Shown piece by piece: positions 27,511 through 59,420 of a stretch of DNA of 64,000 bases (positions within the stretch are counted from its first letter, which is position 1; each line of letters opens with the position of its first letter). The notes beneath the pieces were generated by a model. It had not been told where the DNA came from. It did no database searches and saw nothing but the letters and a program-made list of their open reading frames with translations. Origin of the DNA: Arenicola marina (Eukaryota; Annelida; Polychaeta; Arenicolidae). The position numbers and the translations under genes were made by a program. The DNA is taken from positions 3,674,823 to 3,738,822 of the forward strand of contig OZ025252.1 of NCBI GenBank assembly GCA_964019135.1, written 5' to 3'.

Positions 27511-27633
27511 AGTTTCCGAGGGCTCCAGGTTGTTTTTTTAACTCGTCTGGTGTGTCAGATACATGAACGACAGGCACGTCATCACTCATGGGAGAGAAGG
27601 TACCTACGACTGTATGTTTACGAATGTCCGGCC

Positions 27634-28816: not shown

Positions 28817-28954
28817 ACTGATTTAATGCCGTTTTAATACTTTTGCAGTCAAAGAATACAGAGATCACACCTTGAATGCTAACTTCACGGGCATCGTAAA
28901 GTGACAGAGGGAGGGGCGGGCGGTATTGGGCCGCATAGTCGCACCCAAAAGCAA

Positions 28955-36391: not shown

Positions 36392-36475
36392 CTTGGCTAT
36401 GATGAGACAACAAAAGATGCAGTGCATTCGACCTATAGTTAATCTTGACGTTTTGTTTCGTGTGGGCACGATGTC

Positions 36476-39400
36476 CGCTTTTACCGAGTGGTGGCCGCTC
36501 TCAACGAGTGGTGGCCGCTCCCACCGGGTGATGGCGGCTCTCACCGAGTGGTGGCGGCTCTCACCGAGTGATGGCCGCTCTCACCAAGTGGTGGCCGCTC
36601 TCACCGAGTGGTGACGGCTCTCACCGAGTGGTCGCCACTCTCACCGCGTGGTCGTCGCTCTCACCGAGTGGTGGCGGCTCTCACCGAGTGGTGGCGACTC
36701 TCACCAAGTGGTCGCCGCTCTCACCGAGTGGTCGCCGCTCTCACCGAGTGGTCGCCGCTTTCGCCGAGTGGTCGCCGCTCTCACTGAGTGGTCGCCGCTC
36801 TCACCGAGTGGTCGCCACTCTCACCGAGTGGTCGCCGCCCTCACCGAGTTGTGGCCGCTCTCACCGGGTGGTCGCTCTCACCGAGGGGTGGCGGCTCTCA
36901 CCAAGTGGTGGCGGCTCTCACCGAGTGGTGGCCGCTCTCACCGAGTAGTGGCGGCTCTCACCGAGTGGTGGCCGCTCTCACCGTGTGGTGGCGGCTCTCA
37001 CCGAGTGGTGGCGGCTCTCACCGAGTGGTGGCGGCTCTCACCGAGTTGTGGCCGCTCTCACCGAGTGGTGGCCGCTCTCACCGAGTGGTGGCGGCTCTCA
37101 CCGTGTGGTGGCGGCTCTCACCGAGTGGTGGCGGCTCTCACCGAGTGGTGGCCCTCTCACCGGGTGGTGGCCGCTCTCACCGAGTGGTGGCCGCTCTCAC
37201 CGAGTGGTGGCCGCTCTCACCGAGTGGTGGCGGCTCTCACCGAGTGGTGGCCGCTCTCACCGAGTGGTCGCCGCTCTCACCGAGTGGTGGCCGCTGGCAC
37301 CGAGTGGTGGCGGCTCTCACCGAGTGGTGGCCGCTCTCACCGAGTGGTGGCCGCTCTCACCGAGTGGTGGCCGCTGGCACCGAGTGGTGGCGGCTCTCAC
37401 CGAGTGGTGGCCGCTCTCACCGAGTGGTTGCCGCTCTCACCGAGTGGTGGCGGCTCTCACCGAGTGGTCGCCGCTCTCACCAAGTGGTGGCCGCTCTCAC
37501 CGAGTGGTGGCCGCTCTCACCGAGTGGTGGCCGCTCTCACCGAGTGGTGGCGGCTCTCACCCGAGTGGTCGCCGCTCTCACCAAGTGTTGGCCGCTCTCA
37601 CCGAGTGGTGGCCGCTCTCACCGAGTGGTGGCGGCTCTCACCGAGTGGTGGCCGCTCTCACCGAGTAGTGGCGGCTCTCACCGAGTGGTGGCCGCTCTCA
37701 CCGTGTGGTGGCGGCTCTCACCGAGTGGTCGCCGCCCTCACCGAGTGGTGGCCGCTCTCACCGAGTGGTTGCCGCTCTCACCGAGTGGTCGCCGCCCTCA
37801 CCAAGTGGTGGCCGCTCTCACCGAGTGGTGGCCGATCTCACCGAGTGGTTGCCGCTCTCACCGTGTGGTGGCGGCTCTCACCGAGTGGTCGCCGCTCTCA
37901 CCGTGTGGTGGCGGCTCTCACCGAGTGGTGGCGGCTCTCACCGAGTGGTGGCCCTCTCACCGGGTGGTGGCGGCTCTCACCGAGTGGTCGCCGCTCTCAC
38001 CAAGTGGTGGCCGCTCTCACCGAGTGGTGGCCGCTCTCACCGAGTGGTGGCCGCTCTCACCGAGTGGTGGCGGCTCTCACCCGAGTGGTCGCCGCTCTCA
38101 CCAAGTGTTGGCCGCTCTCACCGAGTGGTGGCCGCTCTCACCGAGTGGTGGCGGCTCTCACCGAGTGGTGGCCGCTCTCACCGAGTAGTGGCGGCTCTCA
38201 CCGAGTGGTGGCCGCTCTCACCGTGTGGTGGCGGCTCTCACCGAGTGGTCGCCGCCCTCACCGAGTGGTGGCCGCTCTCACCGAGTGGTTGCCGCTCTCA
38301 CCGAGTGGTCGCCGCCCTCACCAAGTGGTGGCCGCTCTCACCGAGTGGTGGCCGATCTCACCGAGTGGTTGCCGCTCTCACCGTGTGGTGGCGGCTCTCA
38401 CCGAGTGGTGGCGGCTCTCACCGTGTGGTGGCGGCTCTCACCGAGTGGTGGCGGCTCTCACCGAGTGGTGGCCCTCTCACCGGGTGGTGGCCGCTCTCAC
38501 CGAGTGGTGGCCGCTCTCACCGAGTGGTGGCCGCTCTCACCGAGTGGTGGCGGCTCTCACCGAGTGGTGGCCGCTCTCACCGAGTGGTCGCCGCTCTCAC
38601 CGAGTGGTGGCCGCTGGCACCGAGTGGTGGCGGCTCTCACCGAGTGGTGGCCGCTCTCACCGAGTGGTGGCCGCTCTCACCGAGTGGTGGCCGCTGGCAC
38701 CGAGTGGTGGCGGCTCTCACCGAGTGGTGGCCGCTCTCACCGAGTGGTTGCCGCTCTCACCGAGTGGTGGCGGCTCTCACCGAGTGGTCGCCGCTCTCAC
38801 CAAGTGGTGGCCGCTCTCACCGAGTGGTGGCCGCTCTCACCGAGTGGTGGCCGCTCTCACCGAGTGGTGGCGGCTCTCACCCGAGTGGTCGCCGCTCTCA
38901 CCAAGTGTTGGCCGCTCTCACCGAGTGGTGGCCGCTCTCACCGAGTGGTGGCGGCTCTCACCGAGTGGTGGCCGCTCTCACCGAGTAGTGGCGGCTCTCA
39001 CCGAGTGGTGGCCGCTCTCACCGTGTGGTGGCGGCTCTCACCGAGTGGTCGCCGCCCTCACCGAGTGGTGGCCGCTCTCACCGAGTGGTTGCCGCTCTCA
39101 CCGAGTGGTCGCCGCCCTCACCAAGTGGTGGCCGCTCTCACCGAGTGGTGGCCGATCTCACCGAGTGGTTGCCGCTCTCACCGTGTGGTGGCGGCTCTCA
39201 CCGAGTGGTCGCCGCTCTCACTAAGTGGTGGCGGCTCTCACCGAGTGGCGGCCGCTCTCACCGAGTGGTGGCGGCTCTCACCGAATGGTGGCCGCTCTCA
39301 CCAAGTGTTGGCCGCTCTCACCGAGTGGTGGCCGCTCTCACCGAGTGGTGGCGGCTCTCACCGAGTGGTGGCCGCTCTCACCGAGTTGTGGCGGCTCTCA

Positions 39401-39560
39401 CCAAGTGGTGGCCGCTCTCACCGAGTGGTGGCGGCTCTCACCGAGTGGTGGCCGCTCTCACCGAGTGGTGGCCGCTCTCACCGAGTGGTGGCGGCTCTCA
39501 TTGAGTGGTCGCACCGAGTGGTCGCCGCTCTCACCGTGTGGAGGTCGCTCTCACCGGGGG
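36476..39560. repeat. 20-bp minisatellite, about 154 units, with higher-order duplication
   Basis: The unit is TCTCACCGAGTGGTGGCCGC with many single-base variants. Because 20 is not a multiple of 3 and the unit lacks stops, all three plus-strand frames stay open for hundreds of codons (up to 858) with a 20-residue period; these are not genes. Line-by-line comparison shows 37081-37899 and 38401-39219 identical (819 bp, offset 1320), and a block near 37560-37880 recurs again at offset 520. The array begins about 30 bp past the DHX57 stop codon, so the transcript's 3' UTR probably runs into it. Confidence 0.95.
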
Positions 39561-39590: not shown

Positions 39591-42500
39591 TCACTGTGTG
39601 GTGATCAGCTTCACGATGGTCGGTATGATGCGACTTCCTCGCGGACAGGAGCACAGGTCGAGGTGAGGACTCTCGATCTTGTCCTGCATCAGCTGGTTCA
39701 GCTCTAGACGAAGCTCCCTCACCAGCTCCGCAACCTGCAACAACAACCGACCTTCCTGACCATGGACACCAGGTACCTTCATGCCACATGCATGTGTCAA
39801 CATCGCATATTCAACATCTATAGATCTCAAGAATTTATCACAAATGGATTTTGAAGAAACTTGCTCCAGAGTACGCTTCATATTTACAAGATGTGTACAC
39901 ATTTTACATCAGTTGCCACCGACGAGAGGTCAGAAATATTGGGGGCATATTTCCGTCCCTTGTTTCAGTTGGGCGTGTGCCAGTATGACTGAACAAGAAT
40001 CAGTCTCTACGATATAGTCATCAATACACAACACCCCTATACGGTCGTTTGTACCATCTGGGTTGCTTGTATATTCAGGACGCTTTAACCCCTTTTGGTC
40101 ATATCGCGTCAATGGGAGAAGGAAGGGACAGTGGAACCATGTCCGCAGGGGGTAACCCCCTACTCTCTGTGAAGAAGGACATGGGATCTTTATCCTGCGA
40201 CTACACAGACATGGCCACAGCGGGGCGCGAACCACCGATCCACGTGCCGTTAGGCTCTCAGGTGGCCAGAGCACTCACGGCGAGCTCTTTAACCCACTGA
40301 GCTACCGGGCCGGCCCCTTACCATCTGGGAGGCGGCCATGAACTTGATCCAGCCGTCGTCCGCAGAGAGAACAAAGTTGCCTCGGTCAAGGTCAATCTTG
40401 ACGCAGCCTCCGCCGAACAGCAGCAGCGGGTAGACAGACACCATGGTGCAGTCCCGGATGTATACCTGGAGCAAGGTCAAGGACGCTTACGCCATTAATA
40501 CGAGCCATCACTTCGACATTGGCAACAAAAAGCTGTCCATCTTCTATGTCAGAGCCCACGAAATGTGAACGATTGTAGTAAATGATAGGCATGAGTCATC
40601 CGTGAGCTATGCTGAGACAATGGTTCGCCCTTACGTAGAGAAACGACCCAAAAGATGACTTAAGCTTATTACAACGAGTCGACAGGCGAACATTTGGGAA
40701 ACTATAATTGTAACTTATAACGAGACTGTAAGGATGAAAAACGTTAATGTTGGCGCATGTCGCTGCTGGTAAACGCCTCTCATACCCTGGAAGTCTTGAT
40801 TTTTTCATGGAACACGAGGTACGGACTCTCGTAGTAACGAACTTGGAAGTTGACGCTGGACGGATGAATGTTTACCTGTAACATTACGTTGTCAGTAAGT
40901 TTATAACATAATAACGACATTTACAAGAATGTAAATTTACACTCATTTACTTCAGTTTACTTTGCTTGGCCATGGATATGTACACATTTACGTAAATAAT
41001 GTGTATTATTGGTTTGCAGTAAGTTTTACAAAATGTTGGCCATGGTATGCATAGACAAAAGGGTTGGTAAATGTGCAGGAAGTCTACGTCAGCAAATGAC
41101 ATCAATGTTACAATAAAGCTGGGAGAGAAAAGCTTCGTCCACCATCTTCAATGCATAATCAGGTTTGTTACATTAATATATATCATGACTATAGGAAGAA
41201 AACTGTAAGACTTACATAACCCACTGATTTAGTTTTGAATTTCAGTTCCTCTGCCTTGGGTTTGATGGGTATCGCACCTGAAATAAAGAAACCACTTCGT
41301 TGTCATGACATTAGTCCTACCAGCAGGCCGCCGTGGCCCCCACGGGGGAATTCGACCCCCAACGGTGGATCCGCGACCGAACCAACATAGGAGACAACGG
41401 CGTTAAATCTACGGAGATAAAAAGGCGGCGGCTCGAAACTAAGAATATAACCGAGACACCAGTCAAATGGTGGAGATTATTCAGCCAAAGTCGTTGGTTT
41501 CTGTGTGAGGGACAGCGGTGTGAGAAGCTGTAGCGGGACGCGTACCTTCCCCTGTTAACTGGTACTTGGACTCCGGAGTCATCACCTGCACCACGTTGGG
41601 GTACAGGGCAGCAACCAAGATGGCTGCGACAAGCTTCATGTTGTCACTGTTACAATTGGACTGCAACAGAGGAAAAGGAAACGTGCCACACACAAGGGAC
41701 ATTTGGAAGTGCAATCTACTGACTCTAGCTACTATCAGCATTGGATTTAAAGTTAAATCATCTAACGTATATATCGGTACTTATAGGTTTCTTCGTACTC
41801 CTTCCCATAACACGACTCAGGCTCGATATAACCAACAAAAATAATCTTATATAAGCACAAATATCATAAGATAATGCAGTCACGTTTAACGGAAAGCGCA
41901 ACAAACTAGACACAAATAGTTTATTTCTGTCATCAGATGAACAGAACCATGACATGTAATAATAGTGGTGGATCGCTGTCTGACCTCGTGACCTGTGGCG
42001 TCCAGAACGCCGTCTCCGCCTCCTCGCGCGGTTCTCTCCATCGACCTCACTGTGAGACCTTCCTTGATGAAGCCAATGTCTGACAACAGCTCCACAAACT
42101 GTCGCTTCATGCTCGCCAACATCTAACACCAATGAAACAAGGTAATAGGACTTCAGATAGCTATATACATAGATATAGATATATATTAGTCCGTTCTTAG
42201 TATATGCAATCCATTTGCGGGTACCGAATTTCAGCTCCTGACGAGAATCCGAGAAGATCTATCTAAAAATTACGAACTTAAAAGTGAGTTACAACATTTG
42301 TATATGGTAAAGACCAAGCGGAACAATTAGAAGAATTGGTTGGTTAGTTATACATCACATAGGAAACTTAAAGCGGGTAAAAACGTTATTATAATCGTGA
42401 GGCCTCAGTAATGTTTTGGTCCTGAAAGCAACTTTGCAAAACACGACACGTCTTAGAGAACAACGGGTTCGAAGAAATAAATTTGCAATCCTGTCCACAA

Positions 42501-45500
42501 TAAATTCAAGCGACAAGCCATTTTGCCACAGAGCGTGACGTCATGGATCATACATGTGGCGCCCACATGCGTTTTGGGTTTTTCTCGCTTGCCCAGGGGC
42601 GAGCGGAAATGCGTAAAAAGATATACCGCGGCCTCGCTTCACGCTTGAATTGTTACAATTCCAAGCCGCAGAGTACACCATCTCTTCTAAAAATTAGGCC
42701 CGAGAACCACTGTCGATTTAGCAACTAAAATTCAACCGATTATATCCGTCTAATATGAGTGCTTACACTATAAACTGCAGGCTGTCACTTTAAAAATGTA
42801 TTGCGACAACTGGGTCGTCACAAATATCTGCGCTTTGGAGGGTTGACGCATGGATAGCAAATAAACGCTTGGGTCAGCTACAAGGGATAATATTTTTATT
42901 TCCTTTAAGGCATTATCTGTTTACGTGGTTTACCTGCCTAGTCACGTGGCTTGCCTGCCTAGTCACATGGCTTACCTGCCTAGTCACGTGACTTACCTGC
43001 CTAGTCACGTGACTTACCTGCCTAGTCACGTGGCTTAACTGCCTAGTCACGTGGCTTACTTACCTAGTCACGCGGCTTACCTGCATAGTCTTGATAGATA
43101 GGAAGTTTTCCCTGCAGAACATGTAGGCCTGACGCGAGTTGTTCTTGCCGGTCGACAACCAAGCCTGGTGATAAAAGGGGGGACAAGATGTTGGAAATAG
43201 ACAGCAGACTATAGAGGGCGTCCAAACATACAACAACAAAAAACAACAAGCTCTAAAGGTGACGACACAATGCACTAATGCGGTAATAATAAATAATTAT
43301 TGGAGAGTAACCCGAGAGCTTTCACTGACGGTCACGTGATCTGTGTAAGGCCCGGCCCATCGTCCGTATGGTACACAGCTTGGAACATCGACAGACGGCG
43401 TAGGAATACAAGGCACACATAATGCATATGTTATTGACCATGTGTCATCAAGGTCTCCTGACTTACGTTGTAGGCCTTCAGCATGGTGAGATGGTCGCTG
43501 CAACCCACTGCGAACTCTCTCTTCTTCTGGTCCGCCTCCTCTTTCTTGTCGAAAGGAGCTACCTGGAAACAGCGGGAGGCTGCGTTAGTGGGTAACAGTG
43601 TGTTCGTCGTCTCCATGTTTATCTACTGGCGTCAGCGGATACGACGATTCGAAGAATGTTTCATTCTTTATTCCGTGCATCACATAACTATCGCCATAAA
43701 TGTATGAACAGATACTTATACACATGGATATCTATAGGTTTCTAATCAGCAAAGTTCGGGCTCCTGATAGAATGTTTTACCGTCAATGCACTTCATAGCA
43801 GCCAAAAAAAGACACGAATACTTCATGTCAGGGTTAGCGGGCCACGGGTGCGCTTACGAAGGGGGACTTGAAGCTGAGCGTAGCGGCGATGGTGACGGCA
43901 GCGTCTAAACACCGGAATATGGCGCCGTATAACATCAGCTTGCCAATCCTAGACACAGAGCAAAACACATCGGCGTGAGCGGTATTCTTTACGTCATTGT
44001 TCTTACTGTCTTATATTTCTCAGTCCAGATGTTTAAATTCACCACCCTCAATAATGAAAGTAATTCATTAATCATAATATATAAGACACTAAATGGAAGA
44101 GTTCCTTGAGAAACAACGTATTTAAAAGTTAACAGTTCCCTTTCCACTCATGACATTATATTGTTATAAATATAATTATACCCATGTCTTACCTGACGTC
44201 CACGGGCATGAACGCTAAGTGATATCCAAGGGGCGTCAGTTCCTATAATAATATATCACACCATAATCATATTGGAGCAATAAATATACCTAATATATAT
44301 TATGTTTGTATATGTGAACATGATTCACAAAATTTAAATCGTCTTGCGCAAGGCATGAAGTAGTTACTTCACACTAGGGAACTCATACATGTATAGTGCT
44401 ACAAAACACAGGTTTCAACAATTAACACGCCATTATTCCCAAGAAATACATATTTCGCAAAACAATAAAAAAAAAGACATGATAACATAAAGTCATCATG
44501 AGATTATAAAGCTGAGCTATTATATTAAAAATAGCAAACATTGTCATGATAGCTCAACGTATGTGAATTTTGGAATAATAATAAATTTATTTTACATACG
44601 AATAAACAACAAATGTGCGGCGATTGCAGTTACATTTTCATTTCACTATATTCACAAATCCAGTATACATGGTCATCATCCTCGTTAACCACAAATTCTA
44701 ATTGATAGTAGACATATACGGCGTAGTGGTTATGCAGCCTATTATCAGCCAATCAGAGGCGCGCTTTCCATTCTCACCTTCTCTTCGTCCAGCGCCCCCA
44801 GGTCCTGGAGCCTCTGAATGGCGCTCACCATGCCAACCTCGGGTGGACTCTCGATCAACTTGTTCATCACTTTCTGTACGACAGAGAGAGAGACAGAGAG
44901 TGATGCGGGGAAATGAGGGAAGGCAAACACAGGAACATGCAAATAGTGGGACAGGTGGGGCAGAAAGGTTACATTTACAAAGCAGTGGGTGCATTTGTTT
45001 GTACCCCGGCATATACCTCTTACGCATCGGTACACCGCCGGACACTTCAGTGGTCCCGAATAACATGACGCATATTGGAGGTACAAAGCGGAAGTCATAA
45101 AGAAGGCTGGTACCTCATCAATGTCCATGTTATTGGTGCCTATCGGGCACCTGGTGACGTCACCGGTGAATGTGACTGAAGGAGTTTATTGCAGAAAACG
45201 GCCACCGGCCAAAGTGCATACATGGTACAATCCTGTTGTTGTGTGCTCATTGTGCGTAGGCCATATGACAAATATAACGTCAAAACAATTCAGTTGGCTT
45301 CCCTTAATTTAAGCATATTATAAACAAAAACATCCAGTTGACTGATTAAAACTTCCGCCTCTCGTCGACATATTTATAACGAAGGAAAATATGAAATCAC
45401 ACACTCTGACAGTTTGAAGATTTAAAGGTAAATACTTTGAACGCAAAACAGAGTGCATTCTAACAGATTGGAACTCCCTCTCTCGTACCTGCAGAAATGC

Positions 45501-45684
45501 ACCCAGTGCTTTAACCATCATGTATTTCTCCTTATTATCGCCCATTTTCCGCGCGTGACAATTGGAATCCATAACGTCCGTTATCCACAGAACCAGAGCC
45601 ACGTTACCTTCACATCCTGACTCTTGAAGATATCCAGGATCTTTATTCGGAGCACCAGTTGTTCCAGGGGCACCCGGTGGATTT
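39591..45684 (-). CDS. DHX57: DHX57 exons 16-27: HA2 and OB-fold region
   Basis: Exon 16 encodes [20 protein letters not shown], the winged-helix/HA2 start. Exons 17-22 continue the ratchet-like domain ([70 protein letters not shown]). Exons 23-27 cover the OB fold ([41 protein letters not shown]) and end [20 protein letters not shown], as the human protein does. The stop is at 39591-39593. Exon 26 has a SINE planted at its 5' splice site and exon 21 is followed by a donor-derived array. Confidence 0.94.
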
Positions 45685-48600
45685 CTGGTGAGCGAGAGAA
45701 AAATATCATCAGATAAGTGAAGAATAAACTATATTCCTTCATAAAGACACATCTAAATAACCTTGAAATGCCATATATAAAGAGATGCAAATCTATCAGT
45801 TAACAAGTTAATAGTGTTTGTGAGTTTATATAACATGTTGGTGATCTGTGGGGCATAATTGTAATTTCACTGGTATTATCGACTAAGGGACCAACCACTT
45901 GCCCCCGGCAATTTTTTGGGGGGATCATCATCAAAGGAAGAGCATGTTTTAGCGGTTCTTAATGTCCATACATCCAGCTATTTTTTATGTGGCGCTCGTA
46001 AGCAACACGATTCTTGTTTGGCGAAGGTTGCGCAAAAAATTAATTTGCGGAAAAAAACCCACATAGTTTCCCCCTCAATATCAAATGGTGAGTCCCTAAA
46101 CACAGTGAGTCCGTACCTGGCACGGGCTGGTTGGGCATCTGGAAGGTGAAGTGATGTCCCGTGAAGAGGTGGAAGCTGACGCCGGCGGCCACGCGGCCTG
46201 CACGTCCCTTGCGCTGCATGGCGTTGGCCTTGGACACCCACACCAGCTCCAGACTCTCCATCCCCTTGGAGGGGTCGAACCTGACGTGGGCAAACACGAG
46301 GGCGGTCACTCACCACGCGGTCCCACTCCCACATAGACAGGCCGTGCGCACTTGTAACCGACGGTTGGTTGTATATCCAGCACGCTTTAACCATTGTTGG
46401 TCATATCGCGTCAATGGGAGAAGGAAGGGAGAGTGGAGCCATGTCCCCGGGGGTAACCCCCTACTCTTTGCGAAGAAGGACATGGGATCTTTATCCTGCG
46501 ACCACACAGACATGGCCACAGCGGTGCTCGAACCATCGATCCACGTGCCGTTAGGCTCTCAGGTGGCCAAAGCACTCAATACGCGTGTAATTGACGGGTA
46601 CCCATAATTAGAATGTGTACTTACAATGCTACTAAAGACACAGGCATCGCAACCAAAGCTGCGGGATTATAGTTTTCACGATTGATTGTGTATTATTATA
46701 CCACCTGTGATGTCAACACGCGCTATTCGTAATTTGATGCCATACTCTGGTATGGAAGTGATCTCATTTTGTCTGAATCCAATGTCAAATGGTGTAAATT
46801 AATCCCGACCTATAGATTTCATAGTAAGTGTTTTTAAACTTAAATAAGCGACTGTTCTTCAATTACATGTATACTTTTCTCCGAGCTTCATCACCATTGT
46901 AAAATTACTAACAAAGATAAGCATACACATGTTTGGTACGCTGTTGCAAACCAAAGCGGCAGTATAATATTTATCTGTTTGACTGATACATACTCAGATC
47001 CAATACGTGGGCCTACCCTACTCGGTTTGTCAGTATTATAAATTTACCAATGACAGAAAAGCTCACGTTACCGTAATTCCCTGTGCATAAGTCGCCTTTT
47101 TTACGCACGACGGCGCCCGCAAGTTCGAAATAGTACACACACGTTTCATACTACGGTGCGACTTGCATGTGAGAGCTTACGGTAATGAGAACTATACATA
47201 GAGTGGCGCCCCATCCCCTCACCTCTTCTCCTTCATCCGACCGCTGTCGATGACGTAAACCACGTCTTCAATGGTCACCGAGGTCTCCGCTATGTTCGTC
47301 GACAACACGATCTTCGTCACGCCATCCTTGGGACGACTGCAGCGAGCCGAACAGAAGTTTATGATTATCTCACAATACAAAATACTATGTTAATGCCTCT
47401 AGTAACTAACAGTAACTCTAATCAATATCATATGCATATAGTCTGGAGTTTCATTTTGTCGTACTCTTGTCCTGTGAGATAATCATAAATTGCCAATAGT
47501 AAATAAGTATTGTTTACGCACAAAAAAATGGATTAGAGTGTGAGATGGGTTTATATGTCCTATCCTCGATTTAGGATATGTTGGAGACTTGTATAAACCG
47601 ATCTTGTACGAGATGCAATGTCACAAGTATTTTGTCGCACGAACCGTAGTCAAATTTCCGTCCATTCCCCGGGAAGAAAACCAAAATGATGCCGCCCCTC
47701 GGGTACTGCCAACATTTTGTTTAAATAAATAGAACCTTTTCGAAAGTTCCCGTCGAAGAGTGCCAGATGGGTTTATCCCAGATCTGGCGTCAGAATGGGC
47801 CGCAGCCAAGTGAGTGCGAGAAAACGTATCCCTGGGCAACAACATAACACTCAACTCGAATTACACTCAGCACAGCCTATGATGGGATAACAGATATTTA
47901 CTATTTAAATGAACAATGTTGTGTTTGTGTTAAATCTGCACCGACCTGAAGACCGCATTCTGTTCCTCGCTGGACAACGTCGAATGGAGGGGAATCAGCC
48001 GGACTCTGAAGTAAAGATACATCGTCATTGGCCTCTCAGATCAGATATTCAAAACCAACATGGGTGTTTTGTATACCAGTTTCGGTTTCATTATTCAGAT
48101 CGATTCACAGAAACTACGTCGTGAGGACCCACGAAACAAACAAGGGAGCAGCAATCGAACCGGATATCCACCGAAGAGTAGCCGTGTCTGCTATCACTGC
48201 AGTTGTCAGGGGATGTATTAGAATTCATTATTATTTATATGAAAGCGACCATAAAGTATCATATTACAACACATGGGAGTGACATCACGTGGTCGATGTT
48301 CCGTGCTAGTGCCCACGATATGTAGTATTGTATTAAATGGTAAAAGTGAGTAATACGTGAGAGAGGCTAGGACAATAGACCGTGTAGACCCACCTGTGCT
48401 GGTTGCGTCCGCCAATGCGGTGATTGCTCATGAGCTGATCATACAGACTGGTGATCTCCCCCATCCCCGGGAGGAAAACCAAAATGGCGCCGCCTCTTGG
48501 GTACTGCCAACCGAGTAATAACATTTTTGTTTAAAAATAAAACTTTATTAAAATATTATATTAAAATATATTATAAAATCTACATTACAGGCCAGCTTTG

Positions 48601-51600
48601 TGCTAAACTGGACAACATCTTGGGGCCGGCGAACCAGAAGGTTTCGAAAACATCAAGCTCAGATGAAAGCTAGACTGGATTAGATTTCGCCCACAGTAAA
48701 TATAAAATAACAATCGAAGCAACGCAAATATGGGAATAACCAAAGTGGAGGGAATACCTGGTGGTCCCCGTCTATGATCCACTCAATCAGAGCCTCTATC
48801 AAGTCGTTGTTGATCTTGTCCAAGTCCATCATGGCCAGAGTTTTTATCGTCGACTTCGAGTAATCTAAAACACGAAAATTCTACATAAAAGTCATCTGAC
48901 ATCCTCAACAAATGAGACACAATTACAGATTCTATCCAATTATATTTGGATACCTTTTTTCATACTTTATATATTTAATTCAACTGAAAAATAATCTTGT
49001 AATATTATTTTATTATTTTGCATTACATTAAATAAGCATAATTATAATACTAAAGTTAAATTAATTAATGCCGTTCACCTGTTTTGGCCGATATTTGCGT
49101 TGCGCTCGGAGACATTTAAATTTAAAGGCTGCAGGAGACCCAATCAACTCAATCATACTTTTCTTTCAAACTGCGCTTGACCACAAACGTTAGCCATTAA
49201 AGAAACTAAAAGGAGACTGCGTGAGTCTTTACCTAGTAAAATTACGCACAAAAACAGTGTGAACAGCATTTAATGAATTTAGCTTTATAGTATTAATATG
49301 TAGAAAAGAAACGCGTAACATGCTAAAGATGTACTGAGGATTGATATTGGTTATAAAATAAATGCTTTTACATGTATTCATATTTTGATTGTCGAACCTG
49401 GATATCTTGCCATGAGCTGTCTGGTCGTCAGAATCTGATCCTGAAGGTTGTCCTTGGGGTAGTCCGCCCCATGCTCAGACGCCGCTTCCTCGTCATCCTG
49501 AAGGTCACCGAGGTGAGGGCGTCCGGCTCCACCCCGTTTGTCCTGGCGTCCGGTTCCGGATCGCTTGACGGGTCTGGAGTAGGGCGACCGATCCTCTATG
49601 GCGTACCTATGGAGACACATTCACGGTGGCTGGTATAAGTAGGACGCCTATATAGGTCATATCCCAACAATGAGAAGGGTCAAGGTAGAGAGGAGCCAGG
49701 TCTCCGGGGGTATCCCCCCCTACTCTTTGCAAAGGAAGACCTGGGATCGTTATCCTGTACAAAAATGTGCACAGGTGGGGCTCGAACCACGAACCGGCCG
49801 CTCGGGTTAGTCTAGCAGAGTGCAATACAATAGCCGAACGCGCTACCTACCACGGGGTTGCGCGCCACATACATAGTATCTGTATTATAGTTGATGTGAG
49901 CATGGTATTTGTAGAGGTGGGTATGATAATGTTCACCGTCGTAAACGAATGGTTGGTTGGTTAAAGTAGGATTGTTTAATCTCTATCTCCAGGTCAAATC
50001 ACGACCGTGGGAAGGTCAAGGTCGTAAATATATGTAAGCAGCACAAAAAAACAATAACATTTTATTTTATTTCATTTCTTGAATGAGTGAAAGGAACCAC
50101 CCATAAGGAGCTCTCCCTTTTCAAAATGTTATTCCAGGCAAGCACATGTCTTTATGACGATTACTTGCCTCGTAAATTGAATTGCATCTTCCAAGAAAAA
50201 CTGATCGACAGGAAATGTTCGTCCTGCAAAATACAAACGTCACAAAAACATTATTTAGTGAAAATAAAATACAAGCCCTCAGTGATACCATTCTACTCCA
50301 GTTGCTACAACAAGTATTTGATCATTTACACGTTCCCCCATGGCACTAGAAAAGGCCGGACATATCGTATATCTAACCACCAGTAGTCTTAAAAGCTAAA
50401 TTGAAGTTAGTCACTTGTCCAATAACGTTAAAGTCTATATAAAGACTAATATAATATAATATAATATAAAATATCCCCCAAAGTGGCCTATGATCATATT
50501 CATTATAAACAAAAGATATTTAACGTTTTGTCATTGACCTAAATACCTTTACTGCAGTTGCGAATGCAAATGTCATTACTTAATGTCAACTTAATGTTAA
50601 ATATCAACACTTATATTAACTGTCATTACATCAAAGACATGATCACAAGATAAAATACAGGTCGAACTCAAATGAAGAGCAAACGGTTTTTGAATATCCA
50701 CTTTGGAACTCCTACTTGATGAAAAACGATAATCTTCGAAAGCGAAAACACGAGCTTATTAGATGCGGCGTGATGTTTATTAATGATCTTGTTGATGACA
50801 ACGAAAATGTATTCGGCTGGGAAACGTTTGTACAGCAACATCATGTAGATCTAAATTTCGTAGACTTTTATAGTTTTGAACATTGTATACCCCACGAATG
50901 GAAAGGGGCGTGTAGAAATGCCAATGCAAAACTACCACATGTATCTGGCAGCTGGACAGCGTCTATTTTAAATTCACAACACCTATGCAAATATGTTTAT
51001 AGAAAACTGGTTGGGTCCTTGGATTATCATGTAAAGAATGAAAAACAAGTGGGCAGCAGTATTTAACGAGCAAATAGATAGCGGTAAATGTCAAATATAT
51101 ACTAAACCATTGCACTGTACCATTAATGGAAGTACGAGAAGCTTCCAGTATCTGATCTTACATCGAGCACTTGTGACAAATATTTTTCTATATAAATGTA
51201 AGTTAAAACCCAATGATAGATGTGATTTTTGCGGAAGCGAACTAGAAACTATAGAGCATTTGTTGTTTAGTTGCCGGCATATAGAGTCTTTGTGGTCTCG
51301 TTTGGTACTATGGTAAAATGAGTCATGTAATATATCCTTACCAGTTGATTTTCAGTCATGTATATTGGGTGAACGTAAGACATTATACAGCCAACTCATG
51401 AATCATGTATATTTAATATCCAAGAAGTATATTTGTATAGATGTAAATGAATGAATATTAAAAACACTATTATATATCATTATAAATTAGAAAAGTACAC
51501 GTCCAAAATCTCCCAACTTTGCAAAGAAATGGGACCTCTCTCAAACTCTTTAAAGTTTAACTAAATTTTGATATGAATTGACGAACTTGTTGCATATCTG

Positions 51601-54600
51601 CATTTTTGTTATGGAAATAAAAAAATAAAAAAAAATGATCACAAGATAACAACAAAGCAGTGCCTTACCCCTTACGCCGTCAAGAAATAAGAAACGTATT
51701 AGTAAAATAGTCTTGAAAGTTCAGTTTTTCCATATAATATTATACAGGAACTTCGTAGTACATGTTACGGTAGTTCAATAGATGTAACTCAGTCCGCTCC
51801 TATATGGGTCCAGTCGCGGAACTGTTGGCGGTAGCCACAGCGGCTTGCTCACAAGACTAATGCTACGGAAAACCAACATATTATTTTTGATAAATGCTGA
51901 CGAGGAAAGATGATGACGCGGTGCAGCCTTGCCACACGCTAAGGTACCTGGTATATCAATGATAGGACAGTCGCCGAAGTAATGCGAGAAGAGGTCAGCG
52001 TTCATTGTGGCGCTCATGAGAATGACCTTGAGGCTGCGTCTCTTGGGCAGCATGTCCCGCAGAACGAGCATAAGGAAGTCACTGCAAGGCAACAACAGTT
52101 CATGATTATTACCAAGTAAGGCCAACCACACAAAAACGGGCAAAACATTCTGATAAAATATATCAAATATAATGACGATGACCACCATTAAAATTAATAC
52201 GTCAACAAGATGTAAACAAGCGAACCAGTGAGGCCGCCTAAACCAATAGTCCAATTACTCTTTACACTGACCTTTCCTCCCTGCTGGACTGACCTTTCGT
52301 CACTGCGGACTGACCTTTCCTCGCTGTGGGGATGACCTTTCCTCACTGCGGGAATGACCTTTCCTCACTGCGGGACTGGCCTTCCTTCACTGCGGGACTG
52401 AACTTTCCTCACCGCGGGACTGACCTTTCTTCCCTATGGAACTGACCTTTCCTCAATAGGGGACTGACCTTTCTTCACTGCGGCATTGACCGTTCTTTAC
52501 TGCGGCACTGACCTTTCCTCACTGCGGGACTGACCTTTCTTCACTGCGGCACTGACCTTTCTTCACTGCGCTGCGGGACCGACCTTTCCTCACTGCGGGA
52601 CTGACCTTTCTTTACTGCGGGACACACCTTTTTTTACTGCGGGACAGACCTTTTTTTACTGCGGGACAGACCTTTTTTTACTGCGACATTGATCTTTCTT
52701 TACTGCGGCACTGACCTTTCCTCACTGCGGGACTGACCTTTCTTCACTGCGGCACTGACCTTTCTTTACTGCGGGACCGACCTTTCCTCACTGCGGGACT
52801 GACCTTTCTTTACTGCGGGACACACCTTTTTTTACTGCGGGACAGACCTTTTTTTTACTGCGGCACTGACCTTTCCTCACTGCGGGACTGACCTTTCTTC
52901 ACTGCGGCACTGACCTTTCTTTACTGCGGGACCGACCTTTCCTCACTGCGGGACTGACCTTTCTTTACTGCGGGACAGACCTTTTTTTACTCTGGGACAG
53001 ACCTTTTTTTACTCTGGGACAGAGCTTTTTTCACTGCGGCTTTGACCTTTCTGACCTATATTCACTGCGGGACTGACCTATATTCACTGCGGGACTGGCC
53101 TATATTCACTGCGGGACTGACCTTTCCTCGCTGCGCTCATGAACCTCGTCGATGATGACGTGCGAGACGCCCTCCAGGAGGTGGTCCGTCTCCAGTCGAC
53201 GCAGCAGAATCCCAGTGGTACAGAACAGCAGCCGTGTCTCGGACGACTGCAACACACAATACAATGGTCTCAGACGGGCGACCTAGGCTATAGGCTGTGC
53301 AGCACATACGGCAGGCCAGGGCTGTAAAACTAACAGCCCGATGACCAAAGCAGCAAGCGGAGCCAGATACAGAACATACATGATGTAACTGAGATATTGT
53401 CTCAAGCAACGGGAAAATGTCACAACTACAGCGAAACATGTTGGTCGTTCTTCCAGTACACTATTGTTTCAACATATCTCGCGCCTACCACTTTATACCA
53501 TAAACCATTTCGTGGGCACTAATTTTGTTGGAAAGATGGACGAATATGGTAAACGCTGTGACGCTTCGGCATAATTCTATCTCGTGGTAACAGCGATGGA
53601 CATTTTAATATAAGAGAGTAATTAGGTGTCAGCCAACCTGAACACTTTCGAGTCGGATTTGATATCCAACAATGCCGCCTATTTTTTCCGTTCTTTCATC
53701 TGAGACTCGCTCTGCGACGGCCATGGCAGAAATACGTCTGGGCTGAGTGCACAGGATGTTGTAGACGTTGGTTCCGCGCTCCTGTAAGGAGCGGTCCAGC
53801 AAAAACTGCGGCACTTGTGTGGTCTTGCCGCATCTGCGACACAAATAGTGTGGTTCAGAAGTCATCGGAAGAAAATAGAAAAAACAAGTTACGCTTGATT
53901 CCAGTTAATTTAGCTCAAACTCATTTTTAATTACGCAATTGGAAAGCAGGCATTGCCTATACAAATTCCCCTTGCTAAGGAAATGATGCGGGCTAATGTA
54001 ACGGGCAGTTTCAGCGTGCAAGGCTATATCGTGCATTACCGGTTGTGTGGCCAACAAAGATGTTACCAACACAGAGAAGGAAGAGCCGAACGAGATATAT
54101 CAGCAGGAACTGTCGGTTGGTGACATCTCGTCTGGACAAAGACCAATAGAATGATCACTCAACCAGTAGTGAATCGGCGAACTCACCATAATACTACTAA
54201 TATTGTCATGCAACATTGCAGATGATTGATGCTTCAACACCTACCCGGTCATACCGCTCACAACGAGCACTTGATCTCTGTGAATGGCGCCCATAATCTT
54301 GTCTTGCTCATTCCAAGCAGGAAGTTTCGCCCTAATGGCCAACATCTTTTGGTAAGATGTTTGTTGCTGCAACGAGTACACCAGATAAAAATCTTCAAAA
54401 AATTCATCGAACTTTATCGTGTATCCGATTTTATGTAACAGCTGATGTGATGGCATCCGAATATACAACTTAAGAGAACCAGCATCGACATTTCTGTTAT
54501 TACTGGAAGTCTTATTATATATATATATTTATATATGTTAGAAACGACATGAGCGTACGATAAAGTGAGTTCAATAGGTGATCGAATCAGACAATCAAAG

Positions 54601-57600
54601 TTAAGGAACCGCAACCGAATCGAGATCCTTACGATTATTGGAATTTTTATTACATAGATAACAGACAAAATTACATAGATCAATGAGATAACATTACATA
54701 GACCAATGAGATAACATTACATAGACCAATGAGATAACAATACATAGACAAAGGGGATGACATTACATAAATAAATGAGATACATCAGCTACACAGTGAG
54801 GTGACGGTACCTGTGTCCTCCTGAACTTCTCCTTCAGTCTCCTGTTGATCCGCTCGATCTGCACGGGGTCCGGGCGTCGACCCCCGGTATCCTTCTTAGC
54901 GTACTTCAACCTCATGTTTTCTTGTTTATGATACGCGGATTCACCCTGGACGGTCGGCGGCTCATCCGGATCTTCCGCCAGTCGCTCCTGCTCCCTCTGC
55001 TCGTCCGCTTGGGACAGAAGCTGCGCTAGAGGCCGTACCCTGGTCCCCAGTTCCGCCAGAGGGAGGGTGGTTTCCTTCCCCGGCTTGGCCGCCGCTGGAG
55101 TGTCGAGCGCACGCAGGATTGGTTCCGGGAGACTGAATTTCATCGGCGGTTTCGCGAAGAGAGACGCTAGCTCGTCTTCACTCTCCAAGACGTTGACCAA
55201 TGAGAAGACAGCGGGCAGACCGCTGTCCGCTAACGTCCGAGCCTCTTCCGCCAGTCTCTCTGATATTCTCAAACACACGTCGCTGGCCATGTTGGGATTG
55301 GTGCTCGAGAAGGCGATGAAGGGGACCTCGTAAGGGTAGCGATTGCCGTCGGGAAAGCGGATTTCTAAGTTGTAAAGATTAACTTCCGGCTGAACGTCTT
55401 GCGCTTCCGGCGCCGTGATTCGGCCGTCAGCTTGCGGATCTGTCTCGTTATACAGCACCTGGTGTTTGTACTTACACTGATCGCCGAAGCGACAACCGCC
55501 CTTTTGAAAAAACTGGCAAATCCCTGGCTTCTTCTTCCCGGGGGCGCGCGCCTGCGTCTCCGGCTTCGTCTGTCGTTTCTGCATAGCTTGCCTGACGTCG
55601 GTATCCTTCATGGAGTCTATCTGTTTCTTCTGAACCATCTCCGTGAGGTGGGGGAGTTCTAAGGATATGACCCACACCTTGTTGTACAGTCTTTCGCTGA
55701 AGGATTTCTCATAGATAGAGGCCAGGGCTGTCATTTCCTCCACTCTCTGCTCCTCTATGTCTTCCCACAGTGCGGCGTCTCCCTCTGCCGTCGCGTCACC
55801 CTCACACGCCTCGTCCTCGCTGGGTGAGCCTTCCTCGTCGTCGTCGTCCTGCGACCGTGGGAGGTCTAGTTTAAGGTCGAAACACTTACAGAGGAGGTAT
55901 TCCAGGGACCTGCCAATGTCCCCGTCGTGCATCGTTAAAGCCTTCTCACATCGACCCTTGTCGAAACCATATCTGTGGACGGAAGAGTAGGGTCATGCAT
56001 TTGACACAAGTTGGACATGGCCGCGATTTGTTTGTTGCTACTTGGTCGCGCCAATAACCACATCCGCGATGTCCGTTATGCATATAGGTTAAATCGTGAC
56101 TAAGCGATTGCTAACAATACAAGAACTAAAGAGAAAGCTACGATTTAGCATAAAACAAAAAATAAAAACATTCCGACTCAAAAGTGTGTCTTTTTTCTTA
56201 TAAGAATATAAAATATATAAATTAGTTTCAGTCTGTGGGAGTATATAACAGTCCATAACAGTTAATTATTTAATCACGATAGTGGTCTCCTTATCTTTGA
56301 GCAACAGTTGCTTGGTTGCTAGGAGTCGGATGTTTTAACTTATGAAGACTCAAATAGCGATAACGGGTGAAGATCAGGGATAGAGCGAAGCCATACCGCA
56401 GCGTGTACCCCCCCCCCTACCCCCCCACCAACCCCCCAATCCTTTTTTAAAGCCATTTTCACCCTTCACGAACAGACGTTCGCGCAGCGGAGCGCGACCC
56501 CCGTGTTTGAGACATTAGGCAAGATGTGAATGAATGAATGCCCTGCCATACCGCAGTAGCTTGAGCAATGCCATGTTGCTAAAGGTCTGGGCCTTCCCCT
56601 GCTTGGAGCTGGTCGATACACTCGGCTGTAAGTCCTCCACCACCAGCTTCCGATCGCTCATCCAGTACTGGTCGTCCGTTTGCCAGCTCACCTCCTCGTA
56701 CTCGTTGTCCACGGGGAACTCGTCTTCCTCCTCTTCCGCTTCACAATCCCTGAATCAGCACCAGGGAAAAGGTTCGTCTTCAGTTCATAGACGGATCCAT
56801 ACTCCGACAATAAGCTACGCCCACGCTCCAGTCCTTTTTCGTGAGTCGTGAGAATGAAATTGACAAGGATAGTTGGTGGTAAGGCACCAGTGAAAAGTAT
56901 TCATGTCGGAAACTGAAAAGCTGTTTTGTTTCACGGACATAACGCACGTGGAAGGCCTTTTTTCGCCACATGATTGGATAAAAGCAACAGTGACGTCAGT
57001 TAATGATTGACAGCCTTGATCGGTCTATTGTGAGCGCAGCGCTGCAAAGGGGACAGTTTCTTTAGCATGCAACTTCAGTTAATTCAGAGAATAGCAATTT
57101 TTCTGCTCACCCAGCAACGCTATCAACGGGGGTGTTTCCATGCAGTGTTTGAAGCATATCTTTGACCATCTCCTGGTTCTCCACACTCATGTGAAGTCGC
57201 TGCATCGGCACTTTATTCGCCTCCCGTTTCTTGGGATAGCGCATACTGGAACAAAACAAAAAACAGGACCAGTATTAACCATGCTCTACGGTAAATGCCG
57301 CTCCACCTTCAGTATATGATACACTATTATATTAGCACACTGCATAACATTCATTTTAGGGTGACAGTATGGTACTGTTTCGTCTTTTTGGGCATTCTTA
57401 ACCTTCTGATTTTAAAACCATTTATAACAATTTAGAAGTCTATTTAAAAATAACGGAAAAGTTTAAGTCGTCCCGAACTGTCACATTTTCTTCTCTTCCA
57501 AAATGGTATGCTAAGAATTTAATCAGATTCACAACTCAGGACTGTTCCAACTTCAAAAGCATTCCATCTCTGATGAGTGGTCCTGAATATTCAGTTAATT

Positions 57601-57869
57601 ACCAACATCTATCTTACTCCCAACACAAATTGCCCATACCTCTGTTCTGATGAGTACTCTTCTCTGGCGAAGACGACGGCATCGTCGTCATAACCGTAAG
57701 CCGCCGCACGCGCTCCGCCCTTGCGACTGTCACCACCAACAGCGCCTTTCCCTCTAGAGCCACCACCACGACTGCTGCTGCCATGCTTTCCCCCTCCACC
57801 TCGCCCACGACTAGATTTCCCGCCTCCTCTGTTGTGTCGGCCACCACCTCGCTTCTTCATAGAACTCAT
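39591..57869 (-). CDS. DHX57: ATP-dependent RNA helicase DHX57, 27 coding exons
   Basis: Putative DEAH/RHA-type 3'-5' RNA helicase. Exons by similarity, splice sites and phase: 57869-57640, 57245-57111, 56749-56552, 55972-54811, 54366-54245, 53833-53638, 53246-53122, 52081-51948, 50223-50169, 49606-49398, 48864-48758, 48503-48394, 48005-47946, 47336-47223, 46280-46117, 45684-45608, 44873-44778, 44242-44193, 43948-43858, 43562-43467, 43164-43081, 42122-41985, 41660-41546, 41277-41216, 40875-40786, 40465-40322, 39734-39591. Together they give 4308 nt, 1435 residues (human about 1386). Domain order: Gly/Arg-rich N terminus, UBA, RWD split by a CCCH finger, helicase core, HA2, OB fold. All introns are GT-AG except intron 9 (GC-AG). 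Phases agree at every junction and no stop interrupts the set, so the gene looks intact. The identity is firm; a few boundaries could shift by a base or two. Confidence 0.95.
40063..40318 (-). mobile_element. SINE (family 2) inserted at the DHX57 exon 26 splice donor
   Basis: 256-bp full-length member of the 4789-5045 family, in the gene's sense orientation. The target-site duplication CCCAGATGGTA (minus strand; plus 40319-40329 and 40052-40062) spans the end of exon 26 and the first three intron bases. The junction is therefore present twice: the exon-proximal copy reads ATG then GTAAGG, the distal copy ATG then GTACAA. Confidence 0.9.
42920..43080 (-). repeat. 21-bp array derived from the DHX57 exon 21 splice donor
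   Basis: About seven to eight units of GACTAGGCAGGTAAGYCACGT (minus strand, 21 bp). Exon 21 ends GACTATGCAG and its intron begins GTAAGCCGCGT, so one unit equals 10 exon bases plus 11 intron bases. Most units keep a CAG-GTAAG donor. The unit also carries GTCACGTGAC, an E-box palindrome, several times. Confidence 0.88.
43168..46116. other. DHX57 introns 15-20
   Basis: Intervening DNA between exons 15 and 21, mostly AT-rich. No transposon or RNA gene was recognised; the 122-138-residue frames on either strand near 44.7-45.1 and 46.0-46.4 kb are shadows of exons. Confidence 0.5.
46117..54366 (-). CDS. DHX57: DHX57 exons 5-15: helicase core
   Basis: Motif I (Walker A) GMTGCGKTT, residues 613-621, spans the exon 5/6 junction. 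Motif II DEVH is 714-717 (exon 7). Motif III SAT is 746-748 (exon 8). Exon 9 is a 55-nt exon encoding [17 protein letters not shown], with a GC donor (AG then GCAAGT). Exon 12 gives [17 protein letters not shown] (motif IV region). Exon 14 gives STNIAET (960-966, motif V). Exon 15 gives QRKGRAGR (1008-1015, motif VI). All catalytic motifs are intact, so ATPase activity is expected. Introns 7, 9, 13 and 14 hold a minisatellite, a SINE-like element, a partial exon 12 copy and a SINE; intron 8 holds a LINE. Confidence 0.94.
46364..46585 (-). mobile_element. SINE (family 2), 5'-truncated, in DHX57 intron 14
   Basis: Matches the body and tail of the 4789 and 40063 SINEs but lacks the A-box head. 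Probable diverged target duplication GTAACCGACGG (46353-46363) and GTAATTGACGG (46586-46596). Sense with respect to DHX57. Confidence 0.78.
47662..47735 (-). pseudogene. Partial duplicate of DHX57 exon 12 in intron 13
   Basis: The minus strand reads TTGGCAG then codons for [15 protein letters not shown], a close copy of exon 12's acceptor and first 15 codons ([15 protein letters not shown]). The copied segment also includes the upstream intron bases (TTTAAACAAAATGTT). Similarity stops within the exon and no donor follows, so it cannot act as a complete exon. Confidence 0.8.
49640..49855 (-). mobile_element. SINE related to family 2, DHX57 intron 9
   Basis: The minus strand shows a tRNA-like head (GGTAGGTAGCGCGTTCGGCT, GGTTCGAGCCC B box) and a body with GGATAACGATCCC and CTCATTG-GGATATGACC blocks in the order seen in family 2. 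It lies in the one intron with a GC donor. No clear target duplication. Confidence 0.7.
50654..51634 (+). mobile_element. 5'-truncated LINE 3' end with 15-bp TSD
   Basis: Flanked by ATGATCACAAGATAA at 50639-50653 and 51635-51649 and ending in an A-rich AATAAAAAAAAT tail, so it is a target-primed insertion. Two overlapping frames (50716-51066 and 51038-51316) encode the C terminus of a non-LTR reverse transcriptase protein, including [20 protein letters not shown] and a terminal zinc knuckle ([20 protein letters not shown]). A frame change separates them near 51040-51066. It lies antisense in DHX57 intron 8. Confidence 0.9.
52262..53121 (-). repeat. 22-bp array derived from the DHX57 exon 7 splice donor
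   Basis: About 39 units of CGCAGTGAGGAAAGGTCAGTCC (22 bp, minus strand) fill 860 bp directly against exon 7. Exon 7 ends CGCAGCGAGGAAAG and the intron starts GTCAGTCC, so one unit is 14 exon bases plus 8 intron bases. Many units keep AAAG-GTCAGT. Units nearest the exon are the most divergent (ATATAGGTCAGTCC). Confidence 0.92.
54649..54780. repeat. 24-bp minisatellite in DHX57 intron 4
   Basis: About five units of ACATTACATAGACCAATGAG-ATA type starting 30 bp past the exon 4 donor. Unlike the arrays in introns 7 and 21, the unit does not include the splice site. An AT run (TATATATATATATTTATATA) lies at 54515-54535. Confidence 0.8.
54811..57869 (-). CDS. DHX57: DHX57 exons 1-4: regulatory N-terminal region
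   Basis: Exon 1 starts [20 protein letters not shown], a Gly/Arg/Ser-rich basic tail as in vertebrate DHX57. Exon 2 carries the conserved [20 protein letters not shown] stretch. Exon 4 is the largest (1162 nt): its start is a UBA domain (about 185-225, [20 protein letters not shown]), then an RWD domain (about 262-460, beginning [15 protein letters not shown]) interrupted by a CCCH zinc finger C340-X7-C348-X5-C354-X3-H358 ([19 protein letters not shown]). A TTTGACGTTTCAG acceptor just above the ATG suggests an intron in the 5' UTR. The end of exon 4 falls 30 bp from a small intronic minisatellite. Confidence 0.92.
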
Positions 57870-58227: not shown

Positions 58228-59420
58228 TTGGCTGGCTTCGAGGACGCTGTCGCTGAGGGCGCTGGTTTTGAGGTCCTTTCCGCTAAAGGCGCTGGCTTTG
58301 AGGTCCTTGTCGCTGAGGGAGCTGGCTTTGAGGACCTTGTCGCTGAGGGCGCTGGCTTCGAGGACGCTGTCGCTGAGGGCGCTGGTTTTGAGGTCCTTTT
58401 CGCTAAAGGCGCTGGCTTTGAGGTCCTTGTCGCTCAGGGCGCTGGCTTTGAGGACCTTGTCGCTGAGGGCGCTGGCTTCGAGGACGCTGTCGCTGAGGGC
58501 GCTGGTTTTGAGGTCCTTGTCGCTGAGGGCGCTGGCTTTGAGGTCCTTGTCGCTGAGGGCGCTGGCTTTGAGGACCTTGTCGCTGAGGGCGCTGGCTTTG
58601 AGGACCTTGTCGCTGAGGGCGCTGGTATTGAGGTCCTTGTCGCTGAGGGCGCTGACTTTGAGGTCCGTGTCGCTGAGGCCGCTGGCTTTGAGGACCTTGT
58701 CGCTGAGGGCGCTGGCTTTGAGGACCTTGTCGCTGAGGGCGCTGGCTTTGAGGGCGTTGTCGCTGAGGGCGCTGGCTTGGAGGTCCGTGTCGCTGAGGGC
58801 GCTGGCTTTGAGGATCTTGTCGCTGAGGGCGTTGGCTTCGAGGACGCTGTCGCTGAGGGCGCTGGGTTTGAGGTCCTTGTCGCTGAGGGCGCTGGCTTTG
58901 AGGACCTTGTCGCTGAGGGCGCTGGCTTTGAGGACCTTGTCGCTGAGGGCGCTGGCTTCGAGGACGCTGTCGCTGAGGGCGCTGGCTTTGAGGATCTTGT
59001 CGCTGAGTGCGCTGGCTTTAAGGACCTTGTCGCTGAGGGCGCTGGCTTTGAGGACCTTGTCGCTGAGGGCGCTGGCTTTGAGCACCTTGTCGCTGAGAGC
59101 GCTGGCTTTGAGGAGGTCGTGGCTGAGGCGCTGGCTTTGAGGACGTTGTCGCTGAGGGCGCTGGTTTTGAGGACCTTGTCGCTGAGGGCGCTAGCTTTGA
59201 GGACCTTGTCGCTGAGGGCGCTGGCTTTGAGGAGGTCGTGGCTGAGGCGCTGGCTATGAGGACATTGTCGCTGAGGGCGCTAGCTTTGAGGACATTGTCG
59301 CTGAGGGCGCTGGCTTTGAGGGCGTTGTCGCTGAGGGCGTAGGCTTTGAGGACGTTGTCGCTGAGTGGCTTTAAGGGGGCTGGCTATCAGGGTGTTATTG
59401 CTGATGGCACTGGCTTTGAA
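58228..59420. repeat. 30-bp minisatellite upstream of DHX57
   Basis: About 39 units of GGCGCTGGCTTTGAGGACCT followed by TGTCGCTGAG, decaying at the right end. The 30-bp period keeps reading frames open: 411 residues on plus (GAGFEDLVAE repeat), 333 on minus (SALSDKVLKA repeat) and 290 in another plus frame. No unique domain is attached, so coding is doubtful. Confidence 0.88.

Follow-up and report, generated by a model that had tools for sequence, protein, structure and literature searches.

We identified, in intron 7 of a DHX57-like gene in an annelid genome, a minisatellite whose repeat unit is a copy of the 5' splice junction of exon 7. With a probability of roughly 0.75, we judge that this array was born in place from that junction and is tolerated because splicing keeps to its first donor. 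The intron 7 array does not stand by itself, as arrays combining exon end and donor recur in unrelated genes of this genome. The coordinates below are those of the window, by which we mean the whole 64,000-nucleotide stretch of DNA under analysis, unless a contig is named; the genome-wide searches covered an assembly of 867 Mb in 762 contigs.

The gene and its splice-junction array

The gene that carries the array is intact, as translation of a manual exon model yields one terminal stop and no internal stops. Its predicted product contains RWD, CCCH zinc finger, DEAD, Helicase_C, HA2 and OB domains, and the name DHX57 rests on this layout. In the PDB, exons 7-9 match chains of DHX29 and DHX36 best. 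The end of exon 7 lies in the helicase region and aligns to these chains without gaps, indicating that its sequence is set by protein constraint. Intron 9 of the same gene apparently starts with GC and not GT (CGAG/GCAAGT, where the slash marks the splice junction; window 50163-50168).

Table 1. Coordinates of the gene model and of the arrays discussed in the text
Feature	Position	Strand	Description
DHX57-like gene, coding span	39591..57869	-	27 exons, 1435 residues; ATG at 57869, stop codon ends at 39591
Exon 7	53122..53246	-	ends in CGCAGCGAGGAAAG, 14 bases that form the exon part of the unit; protein alignment to DHX29, DHX36
Intron 7	52082..53121	-	gene model
Real 5' splice site of intron 7, GTCAGT	53116..53121	-	heads the row of donor copies
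Exon 8, splicing partner of exon 7	51948..52081	-	acceptor ..CTTGCAG
Junction minisatellite, intron 7	52266..53135	-	39 units of 22 bp; unit 0 overlaps the end of exon 7 and is followed by 38 intronic copies
Exon 21	43081..43164	-	ends GACTATGCAG; gene model
Second junction minisatellite, intron 21	42923..43090	-	about 8 copies of 21 bp, unit GACTAGGCAG/GTAAGCCACGT, from the last 10 bases of exon 21
23-bp array, intron 4	54649..54782	-	starts 28 bp after the donor; unit without donor; not a junction array
3.1-kb array	36475..39556	-	20-bp unit holding GGTGAGAG; starts 35 bp past the stop codon of the DHX57-like gene
ALDH1L1-like exon array	C1, listed places 606016 to 612276		39-bp unit; exon ...RYFAGWCDKIQ; PDB E 2.2e-25
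AASS-like exon array	C1, listed places 331021 to 336483		41-bp unit; exon ...QEPNMALLDAILEK; PDB E 3.4e-18

The junction between exon 7 and intron 7 reads CGCAGCGAGGAAAG/GTCAGTCC and the consensus of the array reads CGCAGTGAAGAAAG/GTCAGTCC, the two being identical at 20 of 22 positions (14 exon and 8 intron bases). Both differences fall at third codon positions and are synonymous in the exon (AGC and AGT, GAG and GAA). As the exon side is constrained by the protein and differs from the unit only synonymously, exon 7 is the likely source of the repeat. Of the 22 bases of unit 0, 14 belong to the end of exon 7 and 8 to the start of intron 7, so that the array spans the exon-intron boundary. An earlier note on this DNA had counted about 39 copies of a 22-bp unit at this exon, which is confirmed when the junction itself is included as a copy; its statement that the unit equals the junction exactly was slightly too strong, given the 20 of 22 positions above.

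To assess chance resemblance, we compared the exon part of the unit with the exon ends of the gene: it matches the end of exon 7 at 12 of 14 positions and the other 25 donor-bearing exon ends at no more than 8 of 14. Outside the array, a single place on either strand of the 64-kb window reaches 15 or more of the 22 bases of the unit, with 16 matches. Across the 867-Mb genome, a 20-base core of the unit has 14 matches with at most one mismatch, all of them inside the intron 7 array, and a reversed version of this core, searched as a control over the whole genome, has none. Furthermore, unit 36, near the far end of the array, carries the variant bases of exon 7, which is expected if the exon was the source and the edges of the array escape homogenisation. 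The junction identity, the conserved helicase sequence on the exon side, the uniqueness of the core in the genome and unit 36 together give good support to the proposal of the earlier note that the array grew from the 5' splice junction of exon 7.

Other origins for the intron 7 array were rejected. A dispersed element or introner does not account for core matches that lie, in 14 of 14 cases, within the array itself. Intron gain through duplication of an AGGT segment is not what we find either, as the array stops at 52266, with 185 bp left between it and the exon 8 acceptor, and the acceptor side is outside it.

The same gene contains a second array of this type. The junction of exon 21 and intron 21 reads GACTATGCAG/GTAAGCCGCGT and agrees with the unit of the intron 21 array at 19 of 21 bases, a level at which nothing else in the window competes, no other place reaching 15. 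The array in intron 4 is the sole further intronic array of the gene with at least three copies. Relative to the donors, the arrays in this gene start at -9, -10 and +28. Upstream of the gene there is also a 30-bp array of about 38 copies (window 58231-59365), the unit of which, judged by eye, lacks a good donor.

Donor copies in intron 7

By a leave-one-out score, the real intron 7 donor comes 6th among the 26 donors of the gene. Among the 38 intronic copies, 33 retain GT, 18 have a donor 9-mer identical to that of the real site, and 22 reach or exceed the median score of the real donors in the gene, so that by sequence the majority look usable. The earlier note had placed the real donor first in a row of look-alikes; this order stands, with the correction that the copy nearest to the real donor is a GC site, GT being first met again downstream at unit 2. 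The claim that splicing at later donors would meet an in-frame stop holds as well: read-through past the intron 7 donor encodes R S V P Q and then a stop after 13 intron bases, ahead of the first copy at +22.

To examine how the copies have varied, we counted differences from the consensus, which affect 24 of 304 cells in the donor core and 67 of 529 cells in the rest of the unit. Variation is thus lower in the donor core but unremarkably so, 3804 of 20000 position permutations being as low. Nothing here indicates that the copies are being removed as harmful decoys or maintained as functional sites. A fold of the first 256 nt of RNA gave a z of -1.59 with no marked structure, which lends little support to the idea that RNA structure hides the copies. 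The decoy or U1-binding role that had been suggested for the copies therefore gains no support from the permutations or from the fold.

U1 can pair with 7 of the 9 positions of the real donor and of at least 20 copies. The canonical U1 gene of this genome begins ATACTTACCTGG, and ordinary U1 pairing should therefore apply. About 40 equal-scoring U1 genes lie in one cluster, mostly 616 bp apart (contig C12:556678-593202).

Recurrence of junction arrays in the genome

Outside the DHX57-like gene we found 7 clear exon-plus-donor arrays (ALDH1L1, AASS, two myosins and three exons lacking a firm protein match) and 2 probable ones (L104 and L070). Searches for three successive donor motifs gave 3683 matches to AGGTAAGT against 2408 for the reversed motif, and 8091 matches to AGGTGAGT against 3095 for its reversed motif. 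As proof of genome-wide enrichment these counts are weak and were set aside, since they follow a few very long arrays, and we therefore examined array edges, together with exon ends chosen without regard to repeats.

Among the matches listed on contig C1 there are at least 13 distinct donor-motif arrays, and the 5' edge was reached in 11 (those at C1:1094677 and C1:9664999 being left out). Judged by eye, an exon end with an open frame lies at or close to the start of 7 of these 11, while no exon was found at the edge of the other 4. The ALDH1L1-like and AASS-like arrays are the clearest two of these C1 edge cases. At three further loci (L067, L069 and L072), exon sequence is common to the unit and none of the three exons has a firm protein match, that of L072 being sub-threshold. 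The L070 array has three copies and is graded probable: its junction was equalled by 1 of 500 shuffles and its exon side alone by 18 of 500, with a TRF start at +28. The L074 exon is cysteine-rich, has a sub-threshold Pfam match and has only CAG in common with its unit.

We also asked what read-through into these arrays would encode. In 8 of the 9 arrays compared, among them both in the DHX57-like gene, a stop comes ahead of the first copy. The exception is the ALDH1L1-like array, whose read-through is open and in frame as far as the first copy and adds 13 residues.

To sample exon ends without regard to repeats, we used Pfam matches to select 22 of them, 12 from kinases and 10 from myosin heads. 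The kinase sample consists of 12 listed matches on contigs C1-C20 with a profile end of at most 212, small contigs being excluded, from a search in which 120 of 1191 candidates were scored. The myosin sample consists of the first 10 matches by E-value without an in-frame stop, one earlier row bearing a TGA being skipped. Two exon ends with unclear donors (L095 and L098) were kept among the 22, and repeats with fewer than 3 copies or a period below 10 were excluded from the counts.

This sample yielded one clear and one probable junction array. The clear case (L112), in a myosin, has a 62-bp unit that includes at least 36 exon bases, one of which differs in the first copy. In the probable case (L104), in a kinase, the junction beats 500 of 500 shuffles and the exon side alone 481 of 500; TRF places its start at +51, and copies can be recognised as far back as the donor. 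Two more exon ends have nearby arrays: that of L102 starts 4 bp past the donor and has a unit without a clear junction (55 of 500 shuffles as high), and that of L108 starts 21 bp inside the intron and has a unit that lacks the junction (285 of 500 as high). The array starts in the sample are thus one spanning the junction and others at +4, +21 and +51. We estimate that 1-2 junction arrays in 22 exon ends fit any rate from below 1% to nearly 30%, a sample of this size being too small to fix the rate.

Arrays at the acceptor side

In the nine of the ten sampled myosin exons that had an intron within the fetched stretch, no array spans the acceptor, and three of these nine have an array within 310 bp of it. 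When the three arrays were traced upstream, one was found to begin at a donor, that of a myosin-VIIa-like exon (L126; unit ACCCCGTCATGGAGG/GTAAGC...), and two had no exon at their edge. A search for three successive TTTGCAG motifs found 1343 matches, fewer than the 8328 of the reversed control, and thus no enrichment of acceptor arrays.

On contig C1, about 24 acceptor-motif places occur among the matches listed, and the 3' edge was checked in 14; the remainder were three members of a dispersed family, one near-copy of an array and six more. An exon start is touched by two of the 14, one at an otoferlin-like exon (L083) and one at L079, the latter judged by eye only. The L083 array (C1:29201700-29203150) has the first exon bases in its 46-bp unit and is a mirror-image case at a 3' splice site.

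Other features of the window and the genome

Two arrays of a 20-bp unit lie in the window in opposite orientations (TGATTTGCAGGGCGCAGCTC and its complement; 9193-9543 and 10979-11398). The TGATTTGCAGGGCGCAGCTC unit is dispersed on contigs C1 and C2, where some inverted pairs lie about 1-2 kb apart, and it looks like a dispersed element with array-like ends. Minus-strand ORFs at window positions 14990-20500 and 26050-27540 look, by eye, like parts of a Gypsy-type gag-pol, and a similar plus-strand ORF is repeated at 15205-15495 and 20467-20781. Arrays of alternating motifs such as ACAAAAGTTNATTTTGT occupy 28946-30120, with periods of about 20, 40, 81 and 121 bp.

Several kinase matches stood out in other respects. 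Matches with in-frame TAG or TAA occur on the small contigs C232, C330, C443, C465, C497, C504, C609, C652 and C684, which suggests that these contigs are contaminants from a ciliate-like organism with reassigned stops. Five equal-scoring kinase matches lie about 8.5 kb apart at C5:5402476-5437356, and C3 carries many near-full-length matches in one open frame, suggesting that both groups are local gene expansions.

On the mitochondrial contig, the recognised protein genes lie on one strand in the order COX1, COX2, COX3, ND6, CYTB, ATP6, ND5, ND4L, ND4, a presumed rRNA stretch, ND1, ND3 and ND2, with names assigned by eye and ATP8 falling below the ORF cut-off used. A tRNA-Val is found at 2934-3005. 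This gene order matches the annelid arrangement as outlined in PMC2639372, in which nad6 and cob follow cox3, atp6 lies between cob and nad5, and nad3 lies between nad1 and nad2. A long non-coding stretch separates ATP6 and ND5, and the account in PMC2639372 puts such a stretch at this position in Clitellata, Maldanidae and Terebellidae. Amphioxus, considered first as the source because mirages are known from it, was rejected on this gene order. A search for GFP genes gave no match but carries no weight, as its control genomes gave none either.

Explanations for the arrays

In the explanation that we prefer, a short tandem duplication at exon 7 would have copied the exon end together with its donor, and slippage or unequal exchange would have enlarged the duplicated junction to give the 38 intronic copies. 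Splicing at the exon-proximal donor would leave the mRNA unchanged, the added copies being just intron, and this is presumably why the array has persisted. Use of the first donor in vivo and the near-neutrality of the copies are, like the duplication mechanism, inferred. When all competing donors bind U1, classical experiments tend to show the intron-proximal site prevailing. For this gene that outcome would be ruinous, and unit 0 must therefore be favoured by some further factor, for example exon definition.

There is evidence against the preferred explanation. Most of the copies look usable by sequence, and an advantage of intron-proximal donors would work against unit 0 if all of them bind U1. 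Four of the 11 donor-motif arrays with a reached edge have no exon there, and array starts lie nearer to donors than uniform placement would put them, which pure survivorship predicts poorly. One alternative is that tandem duplication is especially frequent at 5' splice junctions, which would be mutational hot spots by virtue of motif, R-loops or chromatin, beyond the mere survival of arrays that arise there. The clustering of starts at donors, in the DHX57-like gene as in the 22 sampled exon ends, and the excess of donor-motif triples over reversed ones would fit such donor-driven birth. However, two of the three arrays met from the acceptor side begin inside an intron, the sample is small and the match counts owe much to a few very long arrays; selection, moreover, hides arrays across exons, so survivorship can yield part of the pattern. 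We regard donor-driven birth as possible but doubtful. A wider proposal would have 5' splice junctions as preferred birthplaces of minisatellites, several percent of introns beginning with rows of their own donor, and a positional rule of the spliceosome (exon-proximal first) outranking sequence identity, with the rows perhaps being U1 platforms too; this we consider speculative and unlikely.

The remaining alternatives give the copies a function or deny that the array is what it seems. Were the rows a reservoir of alternative donors, as in IFI6, some copies would be used: DHX57 transcripts would gain a stop and undergo nonsense-mediated decay, so that array length could tune output, and ALDH1L1 would gain 13 residues per unit. 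The 18 copies that have the 9-mer of the real site and the open, in-frame read-through of the ALDH1L1-like array speak for this, but the stop ahead of the first copy in 8 of 9 arrays would make use costly in most genes, and the long arrays sit in conserved genes; such use is, in our assessment, distinctly unlikely. It is very unlikely, too, that the rows form a functional platform that recruits U1 and so strengthens exon definition or shields the intron from premature polyadenylation. The 7-of-9 pairing of at least 20 copies and the canonical U1 gene are what this would call for, yet the donor core is not conserved beyond the rest of the unit by the permutation test, neither the sequence nor the length of the arrays is constant from gene to gene, and most sampled introns have none. 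Finally, long arrays are hard to assemble and the exact copy number may be wrong; that the array as such should be an assembly artefact or a chance resemblance is hardly credible, as its copies differ in a structured way, the surrounding gene is intact, the junction identity is far above controls and the pattern recurs in other genes. We retain birth in place from the exon 7 junction, followed by tolerance, as the best explanation of the intron 7 array.

Comparison with known systems

In the literature that we examined, minisatellites at exon-intron boundaries are treated as a lancelet feature, and among the open-licence papers listed by our searches there was no report of them in annelids; they are now found in an annelid, in conserved genes. 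This occurrence, together with the one clear and one probable array among 22 exon ends, suggests that boundary minisatellites are a recurrent way for introns to grow. The arrays are also natural experiments on the choice of 5' splice site, as a real donor is followed by many near-identical competitors at a fixed spacing of 21-62 bp and, in most arrays, a stop codon would report the wrong choice.

Related phenomena have been described elsewhere. A minisatellite has been linked to regions of alternative splicing in C. elegans (PMC4039745). Earthworm metallothionein genes have minisatellites in intron 1 and so resemble the present arrays in being annelid intronic minisatellites, although units with a splice junction do not figure in the description available from that source (PMC12783039). 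The Rogers model of intron gain, for which fission yeast 24-bp repeats are cited, invokes tandem duplication of AGGT segments (PMC4974935) and thus of a segment with an AG/GT junction, as here, but it makes a new intron inside an exon, whereas the annelid array lengthens an existing intron from the donor side. Human IFI6 (6-16, G1P3) has a minisatellite with multiple splice donors (PMC2572611, PMC4526556) and, like intron 7, offers donors in units placed at a 5' splice site. Its downstream units are said in these sources to be used and to give isoforms; the annelid arrays, in contrast, mostly place a stop before the first copy (8 of 9 examined).

The closest counterparts are the mirages of amphioxus, described in Adh3, the globin genes BflGb6 and BflGb9, TnC and PGBD5, a term that PMC3087553 and PMC3902484 trace to the work on Adh3. 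These are minisatellite-like tandem copies of an exon-intron boundary in which the unit includes exon and intron sequence, the AG/GT signals are kept and the frame is intact, and the same accounts report length polymorphism and correct splicing. The intron 7 array has the same properties of sequence, in that its unit holds both sides of the boundary (20 of 22 bases) and its copies partly keep the splice signals (GT in 33 of 38). It differs from the amphioxus mirages in belonging to an annelid, in that arrays here reach from tens to more than 100 copies in the cases seen, and in that two of them occur in one gene.
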